Origin: Bacillota bacterium
GTDB taxonomy: Bacteria > Bacillota > Clostridia > Oscillospirales > Acutalibacteraceae
Assembly (NCBI GenBank): GCA_021769885.1
Contig: JAETSA010000002.1
Coordinates: 124,001 to 188,000 of the forward strand
Direction: 5' to 3'
Length of the DNA: 64,000 nt
The notes under the pieces are model-generated. The model saw only the letters and a list, made by a program, of their open reading frames with translations, had not been told where the DNA came from and made no database searches. Shown in pieces: positions 3,448-9,341 of the stretch (the first letter of the stretch is position 1; every line of letters begins with the position of its first letter). The position numbers were made by a program, and so were the translations under genes.

Positions 3448-4380
3448 TTATTCTTCAAACAGTGCGGTGGAAAGATAGCGTTCACCTGTATCGGGTAGAA
3501 GGGCTACAATGGTTTTGCCTGCGTTTTCGGGACGGCGGGCAAGCTCTGTCGCGGCATACACCGCCGCACCTGCGGAAATCCCGACCAAAAGTCCGTCGGA
3601 ATGGGTAACCGCGCGGCTGTAGCGGAACGCTTCCTCGTTCGGGACAGCGATGATTTCATCGTAGATTTCTGTATCTAAGGTATCGGGAACGAAGCCCGCG
3701 CCGATACCCTGAATTTTATGCGCGCCACCCGTGCCTTTGGACAGTACGGGAGATGTTTCCGGCTCAACTGCGACCACCCGAACATTCGGATTTTGCTCTT
3801 TTAAATATTTGCCCGTACCCGAAAGCGTACCGCCCGTACCGACGCCCGCCACAAAAATATCGACCTTGCCGTCGGTATCGCGGTAAATTTCCGGTCCTGT
3901 GGTTTCGTAATGCGCTTGCGGATTCGCAGGATTTACAAACTGCCCTGCGATAAAGCTGTTTTCAATTTCTGCGGCGAGCTCATCCGCTTTCGCGATTGCG
4001 CCTGCCATCCCCTTCACGCCGTCAGTCAGTACCAATTCTGCGCCGTACGCTTTCATCAGCTTGCGGCGCTCTACGCTCATCGTTTCAGGCATTGTAATGA
4101 TAATCTTATACCCGCGAATTGCCGCAACTGCGCAAAGTCCGATGCCCGTATTGCCCGAGGTCGGCTCAATAATCGTACTGCCGGGCTTTAGCTTTCCGCT
4201 TTTTTCCGCTTCGTCAATAATCGCCTTTGCGACACGGTCTTTCACACTGCCCGCCGGATTGAAATACTCTAACTTTGCAAGCACCTTTGCCTGCAAGCCG
4301 TTTTCCTTTTCAAAATTTGTCAGCTCCAAAAGCGGTGTACCGCCAATCAAGTCCGTGAGAGAGGTATAAATATTTGCCAT
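3448..4380 (-). CDS. cysK: Cysteine synthase A (O-acetylserine sulfhydrylase)
   Basis: This PLP enzyme joins sulfide with O-acetylserine to make cysteine in the cytoplasm. At 310 residues it has family length. The PLP lysine is K47 in NPAGSVKDR, the substrate loop is EPTSGNTG at about 72-79, and the glycine-rich phosphate loop is [11 protein letters not shown]. The C-terminal half keeps the GIGAGF segment. It lies 37 bases after metY on the same strand and is probably the second structural gene of a metY-cysK operon served by the promoter at 5876-5904. Confidence 0.97.
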
Positions 4381-4417: not shown

Positions 4418-5707
4418 TTATTCTACCACAGCTTTGAACGCCTGTGCAAGGTCTGCGAGAATATCGTCAATATGTTCTGTGCCGATGGAAAGACGGATGG
4501 TGTTCGGTTTGATATTCTGCTCGGCAAGCTCGGTTTCGTTTAACTGACTGTGTGTGGTCGTTGCCGGGTGAATCACAAGACTTTTGACATCCGCAACATT
4601 GGCAAGCAGGGAGAATATTTTTAAGCTGTCAATAAATTTATGCGCTTGCTTTTGTCCGCCTTTGATTTCAAAGGTAAAAATGGATGCACCGCCGTTCGGG
4701 AAATACTTCTCATACAGTGCGTAGTCGGGATGCTCGGGTAAGGACGGATGATTGACCTTTTCGACCTGCGGGTGCGCGGCAAGGTATTCCACCACCTTTT
4801 TGGTATTTTCGGCGTGGCGTTCCAGGCGCAGGGACAGCGTTTCCGTGCCCTGGAGCAGCAAAAACGCCGCAAACGGGGAAATAGTTGCACCTGTATCACG
4901 CAAAAGAATGGCGCGGATATATGTAACGAACGCCGCCTCACCGACTGCATCGGCAAAGGAAACGCCGTGGTAGCTCGGATTCGGTTCAGCAATCGGTGCA
5001 TATTTGCCCGAAGCCTTCCAATCAAATTTTCCTGATTCCACAATCACGCCGCCGAGGGTTGTACCGTGCCCACCGATGAATTTTGTTGCGGAATGCACCA
5101 CGATATCCGCGCCGTGTTCAATCGGACGGAACAGATACGGCGTCCCGAAGGTATTATCGACCACCAGCGGCAGACCGTAGCGGTGAGCAAGTTCGGCAAG
5201 CGCATCTACATCGGGAATGTCGGAGTTCGGATTGCCGAGCGTTTCCAAATAGATGGCTTTGGTATTCGGCTGAATTGCGGCTTCGACCGCCGCCAAATTA
5301 TGCACATCCACAAAGGTGGTTGTCACGCCGAACTGCGCGAGCGTGTGTGCCAATAAATTGTATGTACCGCCGTAAATGGTCTTTTGCGCAACAATGTGGT
5401 CGCCGTTTTGCGCCAAAGCCTGAATCGTATACGTAATTGCCGCCGCGCCCGAAGCAACCGCCAGTGCCGCCGAGCCGCCCTCTAAGGCGGCAATACGCTT
5501 TTCAAAAACTTCCTGTGTGGAATTGGTGAGTCTGCCGTAAATGTTGCCTGCATCTGCAAGCCCGAACCGCGCCGCCGCGTGGGCACTGTCGCGGAACACA
5601 TAGGATGTGGTTTGATAAATCGGTACGGCGCGTGCGTCCGTAGCGGGGTCGGGGCTCTCCTGCCCCACGTGCAGCTGTAAGGTTTCGAATTTATAAGAAT
5701 TTGACAT
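4418..5707 (-). CDS. metY: O-acetylhomoserine aminocarboxypropyltransferase (sulfhydrylase)
   Basis: A Cys/Met-metabolism PLP enzyme that makes homocysteine from O-acetylhomoserine and sulfide, or exchanges sulfur among amino acids. The 429-residue length and the motifs [12 protein letters not shown] and [10 protein letters not shown], with the PLP lysine about residue 209 in [16 protein letters not shown], place it with MetY rather than the shorter MetB/MetC enzymes. The frame extends six codons further upstream, but AGAGGT sits about 8 bases before the ATG at 5707, so that start is chosen. It is preceded by a 28-codon leader ORF and a strong promoter with an operator-like palindrome. Confidence 0.93.
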
Positions 5708-5737
5708 TGGTACTACCTCTTTCATTTCATAAAATGT

Positions 5738-5824
5738 TTATCTGCCTATGGTTGAAAGCGGCATACACATTCGGCTGTTTCGCCAGTTACACTGTCTTGT
5801 TTTGATTTCGTCGCGGATGTTCAT
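5738..5824 (-). CDS. 28-residue cysteine-containing leader ORF upstream of metY
   Basis: A complete short ORF with an almost perfect ribosome site (AAAGGAGG, 8 bases before the ATG). It begins MNIRDEIKTRQC and ends MCMPLSTIGR. Cys12 and Cys20 are its only cysteines; it is also rich in Arg (positions 4, 10, 15, 18, 28) and Met. It lies between the promoter at 5876-5904 and metY, ending 30 bases before the metY start, in a transcript whose genes make cysteine and homocysteine. No terminator-type hairpin is visible between the leader and metY. If it regulates, control could act through ribosome stalling, translational coupling or the peptide itself. I do not recognise a named family. The position and ribosome site are directly seen; the regulatory role is inferred. 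Confidence 0.65.
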   Translation of the reverse strand: MNIRDEIKTRQCNWRNSRMCMPLSTIGR

Positions 5825-5848
5825 AAAACAGCCTCCTTTAGTTTTTCC

Positions 5849-5876
5849 TATTCCCTATCGGATTAGTATGGAAATA
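5849..5876. promoter_or_regulatory. Operator-like palindrome at the metY promoter
   Basis: The imperfect inverted repeat TATTCCCTAT...GTATGGAAATA spans from the first base of the -10 box across the predicted transcription start. Its shape resembles Rrf2-family (CymR-like) operators that control cysteine genes in Firmicutes. The family assignment is inference; no such regulator gene is in the window. Confidence 0.5.
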
Positions 5877-5904
5877 GAATAGCATATCCGTTTGCATCTG
5901 TCAA
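5876..5904 (-). promoter_or_regulatory. Promoter of the leader-metY-cysK operon
   Basis: On the minus strand a perfect TTGACA (5899-5904), a 17-base spacer and TATTCT (5876-5881). Predicted transcription start about 5868, leaving only about 44 bases before the leader ORF, too short for a T-box or SAM riboswitch. Confidence 0.8.
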
Positions 5905-6022: not shown

Positions 6023-7585
6023 ATGAGCAAATCAAAGAACTCTGTTCCTGCAAATGCTATCAAACACAACACTTACACCGGTAAAGAGCTTACCGGATAT
6101 TTGGTAGGTCTTGCAGGGCAAAACATTATTTACAACATCATTGCAGGCGGACTTCAGTATTACTGGCAGTCCATTATTTTCTTGCCGGCAATGGCAATTT
6201 CGATTATTTTCTTTATCGCCCGTGTTTGGGACGCAATTAACGACCCGATGATGGGTTCTATCGTGGACCATACCAGATCCAAATGGGGCAAATGCAGACC
6301 CTACCTTATGTTTGTGCCTCTCCCCGTCGGTATCATCACCATCCTCACCTTCTGCAACGGGACGTATACCGATTATTCCACGACAGGTATGCACGTTTTG
6401 ATTATCGCTTGGGCGGCAATTTCCTATATCCTTTGGGGTATGACCTACACCATCGGCGATATTCCGCTTTGGGGCGTTACCTCTTTGATGACAGATGACG
6501 AAGGTGACAGAGCAAAGGCGCTGTCCCTTGCCCGTATCGTGGCAAACGTCGGTGCAATCGGTATGCTGATTACCTTTGCAGGCAAAGCGCTTTCCCCGAT
6601 GTTCCAAGAGAAAAAAGGTATGGACGTTCTTCATGCCGATAAAGCGTCCTACATCATCATTGCCGTTGTGCTTACCGTTTTTGCAACCGTGCTTTTCCAA
6701 TTTGCAGGCGTTTCCGTAAGGGAAAGAGTGCAGCAATCCGAAAAGAAGTACACAATGAAAGAGAATTTCAAAATTATGTTCTCGAATGATCCTTTCAGAA
6801 GACTTCTGATTTCGGGCGTTTTGAGAAGTCCCATTCAGCTTCTTTCCATTGTCGGCTTAACACTGGTTATGTACTATTTCTTCGACAACAACCTTGCCAA
6901 CCTTGTGGTTGACGGTCAGCTGCAGATTTTGAAAATCGTCCAGCTTTTGGTTATGGCAATCGGTCTTTTGGGCGGTATGATTATCGGTACTGCCGTTACC
7001 CCCAAGCTTACAGGTAAATTCGGCAAAAAGCAGCTCTACAATTTCTATTCCGTAGCAGGTGCTGTTCCGTTCTTCCTGATTTTTGCGGTTTACAAGCTTG
7101 CCGACGGCAACCTGATGAAGAGTATGGGTTATGTTATCCTGATGGCGGTTATGATGTTTGCCGCATCTTGGGCAATGGGCTCCATCAACATTTTGCAGTC
7201 GATTATGATTGCGGACTGTGTTGACTATGAGGAATACAAAAACGGTGTTCGTACTGACGGTGTTTTCTTCTCGGGTCAGTCCTTTATTACCAAGCTTTCT
7301 ATGGGTGTTTCGTCGCTGATTTCCGGCTTTATTTACAGCGCGGTGCATTACACGGATAAATACATCGAAACCCTGAACGCAGACCTTGCCGCGGGCAAAT
7401 ACCACTTCTTTGAGGCAAACGACGGCAAATATGCTATGGCGATGTTCCTGCTTATTTCCGTACCGCCCGCGATTGGTATGTTTCTTTCGGCTATTCCGAC
7501 GATTAAATATTCTCTTACAGACCAAGAGCATACAAGAATTCTCAATGAGCTGATTGAAAGACGTGCCGCAAAAGACAAAGAATAA
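6023..7585 (+). CDS. GPH-family sugar:cation symporter (MFS)
   Basis: The 520-residue membrane protein has about twelve hydrophobic segments and the glycoside-pentoside-hexuronide family landmarks: RVWDAINDPMMGSIVDHTRSKWGKCRPYL after helix 2, YTIGDIPLWG in the middle, and ADCVDYEEYKNGVRTDGVFFSG between helices 10 and 11. Such carriers import melibiose, xylosides, glucuronides and similar sugars with Na+ or H+. The substrate cannot be told from sequence. It has its own promoter (5961-5989) and a terminator right after the stop, so it is monocistronic. A second member of the family follows after a short gap. Confidence 0.9.
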   Translation: MSKSKNSVPANAIKHNTYTGKELTGYLVGLAGQNIIYNIIAGGLQYYWQSIIFLPAMAISIIFFIARVWDAINDPMMGSIVDHTRSKWGKCRPYLMFVPLPVGIITILTFCNGTYTDYSTTGMHVLIIAWAAISYILWGMTYTIGDIPLWGVTSLMTDDEGDRAKALSLARIVANVGAIGMLITFAGKALSPMFQEKKGMDVLHADKASYIIIAVVLTVFATVLFQFAGVSVRERVQQSEKKYTMKENFKIMFSNDPFRRLLISGVLRSPIQLLSIVGLTLVMYYFFDNNLANLVVDGQLQILKIVQLLVMAIGLLGGMIIGTAVTPKLTGKFGKKQLYNFYSVAGAVPFFLIFAVYKLADGNLMKSMGYVILMAVMMFAASWAMGSINILQSIMIADCVDYEEYKNGVRTDGVFFSGQSFITKLSMGVSSLISGFIYSAVHYTDKYIETLNADLAAGKYHFFEANDGKYAMAMFLLISVPPAIGMFLSAIPTIKYSLTDQEHTRILNELIERRAAKDKE

Positions 7586-7893: not shown

Positions 7894-7928
7894 ATACCAT
7901 ATAAATACAAAATTTCGGAGTGATTTTT

Positions 7929-9341
7929 TTGGCAACCAAAACAAATGAAAGTCAAATTTCCAAATACGGTCGGTATGTCGGCTACGGCATCGGCGCAGTC
8001 GGATTGGATTTGAGCTACGGTCTGTTTTACGGGTATCTTTCCAAATACCTGACGGATGTGCTTTTAATGCCCGCGGCATTCCTTTTGATTTTGACCCCGA
8101 TTGCCCGTATTTGGGACGGCATCAACGACCCGATTATGGGTACAATCGTAGACAGCACCAAAATGAAAATGGGCAAATACCGCCCGTGGATTATGATTGG
8201 TGCTTCATTAAACGCAGTGGTTTTGGCACTGCTGTTCACGAATCCCGGGATTCCGCTTGGGTCTGTGTGGCTGTATGTATATGTTGCGTTTATGTATATT
8301 GCCTGGGGAATGACCAATACGATGGCGGATATCCCCTATTGGAGTATGGTGCCGAGCTTCACGAACGACCCGAAAGAGCGCAACACCATTTCGACCATTG
8401 CCCGCACCTTCAGCGGTATCGGGCAGGGCATCATCACGATTTTCACACCGTATGCTTTGCTTTTGCTCGGTTCGGGCATCACCAAGGAAGAACGCAAGCT
8501 GAGCGCGCAGGGCTTCAGCCGTTGGGCAATTATTTGTGCGGTACTGCTCATTGTTTTTGCCGTGATTTGCGCAAGCGTCACCAAAGAGCGTCACGTTGTA
8601 TACAACAAAGACAAATTCAGCTTTAAAAAGCTGTTCAACGTGCTCAAAAGCAATGACCAATTGATTGTATTTATGCTGTTTGCGATGATTTCCAACGCGG
8701 GCTGGTACTTAACCAGTGGCGTGGGCATTTATTACTTTGAAAATGTGGAGGGCGACGTCACAAAGCAAAGTATGTTCGCCACCTTCGGTGCAGTCGGCTC
8801 ATTCCTCGGCTTGTTTGTCATTCCGATTATGCAAAAGAAATACACGCGCCGCACAATTTATCAGTTCTGCTTGGTTATGGTCATTGTCGGCTATGCGGCA
8901 ATGATTATCTGCGGACCGATTCTCCACCAAATGCTCCTGCTGTATATCGCGTATATTATCGCGTCCATCGGGATTGCATCGATGTTTGTCAACCAAACGG
9001 TTATGCTTGCGGACATTGTGGATTACGGCGAATACAAAACCGGCAAACGGCAGGAAAGCACCACTTTCTCGATGAAAGGATTTTTGCAAAAGATGGCGTA
9101 TACCATTCAGACAATCATCCTCTTTTCGGGGCTTGGGCTTTCGGGCTACGACGGTGCGGCAACGGTACAGACCGATGCCGCCAAAACGACAATCAGCGTG
9201 ATGACCTTTGTCATTCCGCCGATTCTCGTATTGATTTCGTTCCTGGTATTCTCTAAGAAATATAAGCTGTACGGGGAGCTTTCCGAAAAGGTGCAGTCCT
9301 TCGTCGCGGCACGTGAGGCAAAAATGGAGGAGGACGCATAA
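7929..9341 (+). CDS. GPH-family sugar:cation symporter (MFS), second copy
   Basis: A 470-residue carrier with the same family signatures as the symporter at 6023: RIWDGINDPIMGTIVDSTKMKMGKYRPW, NTMADIPYWSMVPSF and ADIVDYGEYKTGKRQES. The two are clearly different proteins, not a recent duplication. The start is taken as TTG at 7929, because CGGAG lies 8 bases upstream; the GTG at 7920 overlaps that ribosome site. The downstream phosphatase begins at the base after its stop codon, so the two are co-translated. Substrate unknown; probably a glycoside or uronide. Confidence 0.88.
   Translation: MATKTNESQISKYGRYVGYGIGAVGLDLSYGLFYGYLSKYLTDVLLMPAAFLLILTPIARIWDGINDPIMGTIVDSTKMKMGKYRPWIMIGASLNAVVLALLFTNPGIPLGSVWLYVYVAFMYIAWGMTNTMADIPYWSMVPSFTNDPKERNTISTIARTFSGIGQGIITIFTPYALLLLGSGITKEERKLSAQGFSRWAIICAVLLIVFAVICASVTKERHVVYNKDKFSFKKLFNVLKSNDQLIVFMLFAMISNAGWYLTSGVGIYYFENVEGDVTKQSMFATFGAVGSFLGLFVIPIMQKKYTRRTIYQFCLVMVIVGYAAMIICGPILHQMLLLYIAYIIASIGIASMFVNQTVMLADIVDYGEYKTGKRQESTTFSMKGFLQKMAYTIQTIILFSGLGLSGYDGAATVQTDAAKTTISVMTFVIPPILVLISFLVFSKKYKLYGELSEKVQSFVAAREAKMEEDA

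Follow-up and report, generated by a model that had tools for sequence, protein, structure and literature searches.

What, if anything, is sensed by the short open reading frame (ORF) that separates the promoter of a clostridial metY–cysK operon from its first gene, and how would such sensing reach the operon? The window, i.e. the whole stretch of 64,000 nucleotides that was analysed, carries this ORF together with metY, cysK and their promoter on its minus strand (Table 1). A sequence-only reading of the same DNA had described a TTGACA-17-TATTCT promoter, an imperfect palindrome over the start site and a 28-codon ORF with a Shine-Dalgarno (SD) sequence, all placed ahead of two sulfur-assimilation genes; each of these parts was found as described, with Cys at positions 12 and 20 of the peptide, the five Arg residues at positions 4, 10, 15, 18 and 28, and both downstream genes backed by NCBIfam. 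It had further proposed a leader of the cysteine-attenuation kind known from Actinobacteria. The comparison presented here upholds a regulatory leader ORF in front of metY–cysK and does not uphold a purely Cys-codon attenuator, as 11 of 46 related leaders contain no cysteine.

The explanation that we favour, with a probability of roughly 0.7 for the account as a whole, is that the leader encodes a cis-acting peptide controlling metY–cysK by ribosome-mediated translational attenuation. In the free RNA, the segment GUAUGCCGCUUUC would pair with the metY SD region GAAAGAGGUAGUAC, keeping the translation of metY low, whereas a ribosome slowed at Arg(CGA)-Met(AUG)-Cys(UGU) would cover this anti-SD segment, free the metY SD and thereby switch the operon on. 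The trigger would most likely be a shortage of Met-tRNA and/or Cys-tRNA, with the rare CGA codon just before AUG sharpening the pause and the nascent peptide perhaps helping. In relatives, the Arg-Met leader would be used likewise or, at seven loci, together with alternative hairpins, some of them with a terminator. The predicted anti-SD directly after Arg-Met is the element that had been absent from the sequence-only reading. Sequence and computation show the conservation of the leader, its frame, the locked CGA-AUG pair, the complementarity of the anti-SD and the place of best SD release; that the ORF is translated, that ribosomes stall on it, to which signal, in which direction the operon responds and that a repressor takes part are inferences.

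The leader region and its relatives

Table 1. Parts of the metY–cysK leader region and operon, in window coordinates
Feature	Position	Strand	Basis or remark
-35 element TTGACA	5899..5904	-	Sequence; TTGACA also 5' of the ORF in L031-L034
-10 element TATTCT	5876..5881	-	Sequence; 17-nt spacer from the -35 element
Conserved, imperfectly palindromic block CATACTAATCCGATAGG	5854..5870	-	Close to where transcription is expected to begin; candidate operator of the Rrf2 family
Leader-ORF Shine-Dalgarno AAAGGAGG	5832..5839	-	Sequence
Leader ORF MNIRDEIKTRQCNWRNSRMCMPLSTIGR, 28 codons, ATG at 5824	5738..5824	-	Sequence and homologues before metY
Codon pair CGA-AUG (Arg18-Met19)	5768..5773	-	Fixed element of the family; expected (putative) stall site
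Cys20 codon UGU, next A-site codon	5765..5767	-	Sequence and comparison of leaders
Anti-SD segment GUAUGCCGCUUUC, leader codons 20-24	5754..5766	-	Pairs with 5723-5710 in the predicted fold
metY Shine-Dalgarno region GAAAGAGGUAGUAC	5710..5723	-	Hidden within the predicted hairpin
metY (O-acetylhomoserine aminocarboxypropyltransferase / cysteine synthase)	4418..5707	-	NCBIfam TIGR01326, above cut-off
cysK (cysteine synthase A)	3448..4380	-	NCBIfam TIGR01139, above cut-off

The start of metY most likely lies at 5707, an alternative in-frame ATG being present at 5725. Divergent to the leader, two consecutive long ORFs on the plus strand (6023-7585 and 7920-9341) look by eye like multi-pass symporter-type transporters. 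In the predicted fold, GGCUGUUU at the leader SD (5833-5826, minus strand) finds a complement in AAACAGCC, part of the leader core (5780-5773, minus strand), and through this pairing the start of the leader ORF itself may also be folded away. The string GGAGGCUGUUU was found again in L031, L034 and L152.

The absence of the other regulatory elements considered earlier was confirmed: Rfam, searched with E-values up to 5, gave no element in the window leader, neither a T-box nor a SAM riboswitch nor any other, and of the 83 metY loci surveyed, the 19 in which a hairpin followed by a T-run precedes the gene do not include that of the window (L105). Across the leaders Rfam likewise returned nothing, its sole T-box match, which falls short of the gathering score at 845-1093 of L107 (minus strand), lying outside the leader. 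No named family was found for the peptide, in agreement with the sequence-only reading, with no match in Pfam for two leaders or in NCBIfam for the window peptide and five others, short peptides being hard for profiles.

The palindromic block at 5870-5854 is kept in L031, L033 and L034 and, more loosely, in L032, and an Rrf2-family repressor binding at the promoter may add a second layer of control. The host genome holds one exact copy of the block; with up to two mismatches, six places were found against four in the reversed control, and the idea of an operator regulon in this genome was dropped, the near matches being at control level. Its two Rrf2 proteins score 137.5 and 124 bits with the CymR model, the cut-off of which is 195. 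At L218 1495-2579, one of the two host Rrf2 genes is followed by a gene whose 215-residue product bears weak similarity to the end of MetH.

The search for the same ORF in relatives, which the sequence-only reading had named as a check, found it, and the loss of the ORF that would have spoken against that reading was not seen. Three congeners and Massiliimalia timonensis carry the string RQCNWRNSRMC ahead of metY; within the genus, a window-type leader stands at the same place in 4 of 36 genomes, the host counted. The peptides directly before metY are MTSRDRIQIRQCNWRNSRMCMPLS... (G016), MTARDVIQIRQCNWRNSRMCTSVFCKRYL (G007) and MADLNKIKSRQCNWRNSRMCTC (G006); in M. timonensis the leader MATLMRIKTRQCNWRNSRMCLSIQP has metY and cysK downstream and an Rrf2 gene (PF02082) upstream. 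Among the four congeners the core residues are invariant, the synonymous codons differ and the tails differ. This recurrence upstream of metY, with synonymous differences in an invariant core, indicates that the ORF is more than a chance occurrence. In one of these congeners (G016, L031 4001-4171) the leader frame continues into metY in another frame, and leader and gene would overlap.

The peptide search over 59 relatives gave 16 places, and among the 14 inspected for metY (L011 and L016 were left out) the gene adjoins only L002-L005. Over 394 genomes of the order, 12 places were obtained, those in G000, G007 and G359 beside metY and the other nine (L021-L029) not, and the exact window-core pattern, run over 398 genomes of the phylum, matched the host only. 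The member in G359 (L020) is a distant one, MTLEKLKQHLCRWRNSRMCYGVITQPY (CRWRNSRMC), situated 265 nt upstream of metY.

Judged by sequence, the window leader is a divergent member of a wider family of SD-led short ORFs that end in ...N(F/W)R(F/N)(G/S)-Arg-Met, followed by Cys, a stop codon or another residue. A metY-like gene is present in 31 of 32 other congeners, and 21 congener loci were inspected, 17 of them close and with readable upstream DNA (L035-L052 without the truncated L046) and four distant (L053-L056). An FRFGRM-like short ORF occupies the same place at 16 of the 17 close loci, L045 being the one without it, and no such leader was seen at the four distant genes. The endings include NFRFGRM, NYRFGRM, NFRNGRM and GTWRM, and the NFRNGRMC of L035 bridges the window form NWRNSRMC and NFRFGRM.

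A degenerate FRFGRM pattern followed by TG, in which ATGTG was required and any Arg codon allowed, was then matched at 40 places in 39 of the 394 genomes of the order, representing 24 of 168 genera, with matches to the reversed control in two genomes; 299 genomes of the phylum, only three of them from the order, gave no match. Downstream of these 40 places lie metY in 33 cases and an ABC lipoprotein in six (L095, L097, L098, L099, L101 and L102), with neither in one, which is put down to chance. The six lipoproteins are of the substrate-binding ABC type: the three run on Pfam all match PF03180, the other three were judged by eye, and two of the PF03180 proteins match NCBIfam MetQ/NlpA models, below the curated cut-offs. 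Because relatives of the leader precede MetQ/NlpA-type lipoproteins, methionine is implicated at least as much as cysteine. A cystine-type transporter had been considered for the L101 and L102 genes, and L101, the one of the two that was run, gave an NlpA/MetQ-type match instead. At both loci AUGUUGUAU, which follows Arg-Met, has a matching AUACAACAU further downstream.

A scan of 147 genomes for SD-led ORFs with CGAATGTG yielded 46 places in 37 genomes against about 11 matches to the reversed control; by eye these were mostly ordinary gene starts, with a few known metY leaders, and the scan therefore sheds little light on further regulated genes. In another family of the order, a leader-like ORF before metY, MKNKKLMCEAGMMCGKMCSTAMCGIAYMPMCNSKYERQCLL (MKNKKLMCEAGMMCGKMCSTAMCGIAYMPMC..., L187 224-349), holds five Met-Cys pairs, a hint that both amino acids are sensed upstream of metY in this order.

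The CGA-AUG pair and the cysteine codons

The feature common to these leaders is found by starting from the gene rather than from the peptide. Close homologues of metY in 197 genomes of the order gave 83 loci in 82 genomes, and with all of the upstream DNA inspected the commonest hexamer in the 260 nt before the gene was CGAATG, present at 50 of the 83 loci, followed by AAAGGA (46) and TTGACA (42). Inside SD-led short ORFs the hexamer occurs 61 times, in frames 0, 1 and 2 in 53, 5 and 3 cases, respectively. An SD-led ORF with an in-frame CGA-AUG pair is present at 47 loci, among which L110 looks like chance, and is missing from the 260 nt at the other 36, where 33 lack the hexamer and three fail the SD rule. 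All of these family loci are related by descent, and the counts are not independent.

The arginine codon of the pair is locked. All 26 leaders selected with a peptide pattern have CGA there, as do 39 of the 40 FRFGRM places; for comparison, CGA makes up 42 of 771 Arg codons in 45 ORFs of the window, where CGA-AUG pairs number 4 against 1.1 expected, i.e. they are not avoided. The arginine three codons earlier is encoded by CGT (18), CGC (13), CGA (10), CGG (9), AGA (7) and AGG (3) in 60 distinct leaders, a set for which the filter required that earlier arginine and, for a part of it, CGA at the later site. PMC4046918 describes CGA as stalling ribosomes in the Salmonella his leader and also cites profiling that, in rich medium, did not find rare codons to be slow.

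The cysteines behave otherwise: Cys12 is confined to the window subclass and to L020, and it is Arg(CGA)-Met that is fixed. The codon after Arg-Met is UGA in 21, UGU in 20, UGC in 10 and another in 9 of the 60 distinct leaders, so that the position of Cys20 holds Cys in 30 and a stop in 21. Downstream of Arg-Met cysteine is enriched: it accounts for 58 of 392 residues there, against 1.6 percent in the window ORFs, and for 31 of 742 upstream of the pair. The leaders without any cysteine, 11 of the 46 picked by CGAATG in the metY survey, include four from one genus. As 21 of 60 leaders end in Arg-Met-UGA and these 11 of 46 lack cysteine, a shortage of Cys-tRNA cannot be the common trigger.

In the classical view of attenuation, one AUG by itself makes a poor sensor. 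In NFRFG it is the amino acids that are kept, with different codons in different leaders, which counts against the sensing of hungry codons, since such sensing does not need it. The same conservation speaks for nascent-chain arrest. Here a small molecule (candidates are methionine, S-adenosylmethionine, cysteine and an acetylated precursor) would cause the nascent chain ...NFRFGRM or ...NWRNSRM, with CGA-AUG in the decoding sites, to halt the ribosome, and the SD would be released as in the favoured model, the signal being other than tRNA charging. The many leaders that end at UGA directly after Arg-Met, like those devoid of cysteine, would suit such a mechanism. However, NFRFG stands before Arg-Met in some leaders and unrelated peptides (MKANIQRRYCRM, MKTFTMKCIKNENINRMCSSI, MNINERAGEIPRRVITGTDRMC) in others, and in many metY leaders CGA-AUG is kept behind a quite different upstream peptide, which would be odd for ligand specificity, while the Cys-rich tails of other leaders fit the reading of codons. 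We regard an arrest peptide as rather unlikely, though it fares best among the alternatives.

The proposal of a pure cysteine-codon attenuator, in which the ribosome would stall at Cys12 or Cys20 when Cys-tRNA is short, draws on the enrichment just described, on the Cys that follows Arg-Met in the window as in half of the distinct leaders, and on the Cys codons that stand just before Arg-Met in six of seven loci with a long gap to metY (see below). Against it stand the cysteine-free leaders, the restriction of Cys12 to the window subclass and L020, and the copies that precede MetQ/NlpA-type lipoproteins, and it is ranked below the attenuation model as an unlikely account.

Predicted pairing with the metY Shine-Dalgarno region

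In many loci, the window included, the sequence just after or just before Arg-Met is predicted to pair with the SD of metY. The complementarity is preserved with other letters in M. timonensis (UCUUUCUAUC/GAUAGAAAGA), L094 (UGAUCCUCA/UGAGGAUCA) and L090 (UGUGUACC/GGUACACA). The anti-SD duplex of the window is equalled or surpassed by 27 of 2000 shuffles, and for the five loci of the window class (L002 and L031-L034) the shuffles that give an equally good or better duplex after Arg-Met number 27, 0, 11, 53 and 6 of 2000, respectively. The fold of the window leader overall is not unusual (z -0.22). In L020 no such pairing follows Arg-Met, 1998 of 2000 shuffles being as good or better.

Across 67 loci, the native metY SD takes on average 5.19 kcal/mol to open; with SDs exchanged between loci the mean is 2.80 (sd 0.20, highest of 40 rounds 3.32). 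This difference is inflated by shared base composition, as the permutation tests are. Two such tests, the first on 50 loci (L020 excluded for its long gap) and the second on 25 leaders hand-picked one per genus with a gap of up to 120 nt, both favour native pairs of leader and SD, and the window SD ranked 5th of 50 in the former. In the 25-genus test, only 4 to 6 of the 25 leaders had their native SD as the best partner, and an upstream control segment reached a z of -3.9; since this control segment is significant too, base composition contributes to the scores. A pairing profile controlled for composition by mononucleotide shuffles was relied on instead. It shows one peak at -22..-3 around CGA, with a mean z down to -0.8 for one locus per genus and -1.2 for 73 loci, and another at +2..+21, with a mean z of about -1.0 and -1.1, respectively, and elsewhere weaker dips, to about -0.5. 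At the best windows of the profile, z is below -1 in 28 to 45 percent of loci. An alternative pairing, masking the SD of the following gene, is thus predicted, and it is strong in under half of the loci.

In the folding calculations, the release of the SD was also followed with a sliding 28-nt mask that stands for the ribosome. The mean opening cost is lowest when the P site lies on CGA (2.18, compared with 5.21 in the absence of a mask). This minimum is a shallow one, with 2.26 and 2.28 one codon to either side and about 3 at -18 and +12, and nearly every P site from -24 to +39 lowers the mean by at least 1.5. In the window, the cost drops from 5.4 to 2.4-2.6 at P sites 0 to +9 and stays at about 3 up to +21, and it is 5.6-5.8 with P sites from -39 to -15.

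A second layout is found at seven loci (L106, L107, L118, L125, L126, L128 and L129), where 167-199 nt separate Arg-Met from metY. Here a segment that starts 9-12 nt after CGA pairs strongly with a distant segment at -22.9 to -39.6 kcal/mol, and the distant segment can also pair with a third one, so that A:B competes with B:C. Three of these loci (L106, L118 and L126) are among the 19 with a hairpin and T-run in the terminator scan; in L128 a terminator is visible by eye, L125 and L129 have a hairpin without a good T-run, and the T-run of L107 is interrupted. In the same scan, the matches at L148 and L153 overlap Arg-Met itself. Judged from these predicted pairings, the seven loci look more like transcription attenuators. 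Six of them have Cys codons 3-9 nt before CGA, three with Cys at +9 as well, and L106 has no Cys. A ribosome stalled at the Cys codons before CGA would leave the first segment free, and at the SD-release loci, where Cys often comes after Arg-Met, a stalled ribosome would cover the anti-SD; from this anatomy, both layouts would turn metY on in shortage.

A further reading is that of translational coupling, in which ribosomes on the short ORF would always keep the metY SD open, with no specific sensing. An anti-SD inside or beside the ORF, the short gap to metY at many loci and the lowering of the opening cost by masks over much of the leader all agree with it; the fixed CGA codon, its frame and its place at the best SD release are left unexplained, as are the variants with alternative hairpins, and we hold coupling alone to be improbable. 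Very improbable, and likewise ranked below the attenuation model, is the idea that CGAAUGYG (intact element CGAAUGUG) is a nucleic-acid signal, whether an RNA polymerase pause or a binding site for protein or RNA, with its frame incidental: TGYG recalls the elemental pause consensus and the letters of CGAATGTG often persist where AUG is followed by a stop or Trp codon instead of Cys (in a pattern search that itself required ATGTG), but the strong preference for frame 0 persists across leaders with unrelated upstream peptides.

The attenuation model can be extended, more tentatively and at somewhat less than even odds, to the proposal that the CGA-then-AUG pair constitutes a new class of ribosome-mediated sulfur sensor across an order. 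The pair would be a programmed pause that reads the supply of Met and often of Cys, with SD release or attenuator-like hairpins as outputs and with both metY–cysK biosynthesis and MetQ-type uptake as targets.

Relation to known leader peptides

No earlier description of the family, nor the string FRFGRM, was found in the literature searched, the scope of which left out preprints and most subscription papers. The leader probably works like a translational attenuator, and its seven long-gap relatives more like transcriptional ones. Few amino acid genes of Firmicutes have been described as being under leader-peptide attenuation. PMC2965389 (2010) states that, ermC excepted, no such case had been known beyond Proteobacteria and Actinobacteria, and reports histidine leaders in bacilli. 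For Staphylococcus aureus, a leucine-rich attenuator peptide was reportedly described later. A family that spans many genera of one order, with a codon-locked core, two output architectures and a sulfur regulon, makes it possible to compare, as in a natural experiment, what slow codon pairs and nascent chains contribute to ribosome pausing, and gives a testable account of methionine and cysteine control in these Clostridia.

Among known systems, the his, trp and leu transcription attenuators share with the seven long-gap relatives the competition of A:B with B:C before the gene, with a terminator in some; the window leader differs from them in having neither a terminator nor a run of one control codon.

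Polycysteine leaders are known from mycobacteria. The actinobacterial cysteine leaders are likewise short ORFs with Cys codons before sulfur genes and, in the relevant passages of PMC1262725, show runs of Cys codons near the stop, with no conserved terminator hairpin found, a terminator being absent from the window too. In contrast to them, the window leader has a single Cys12 and Cys20 with no run of Cys near the stop, and its family has Arg-Met fixed, Cys optional and an anti-SD thereafter.

TnaC and SpeFL are arrest leaders that respond to ligands, and the likeness to them lies in the conserved basic and aromatic C-terminal peptide of one large subgroup and in the fact that about a third of the distinct leaders end at UGA right after Arg-Met. 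Unlike in those systems, the upstream peptide of the family is not fixed and the target is a biosynthetic operon.

In erm-type translational attenuation, of which the ermC leader is an example, a short SD-led ORF is followed by a predicted hairpin over the next SD, which a stalled ribosome would free, and the window shares this arrangement, including an SD-led short ORF that is conserved as a peptide upstream of the gene. Whereas the erm-type systems sense antibiotics ahead of resistance genes, the leader of the window stands before sulfur amino acid genes and carries a fixed CGA-AUG pair.
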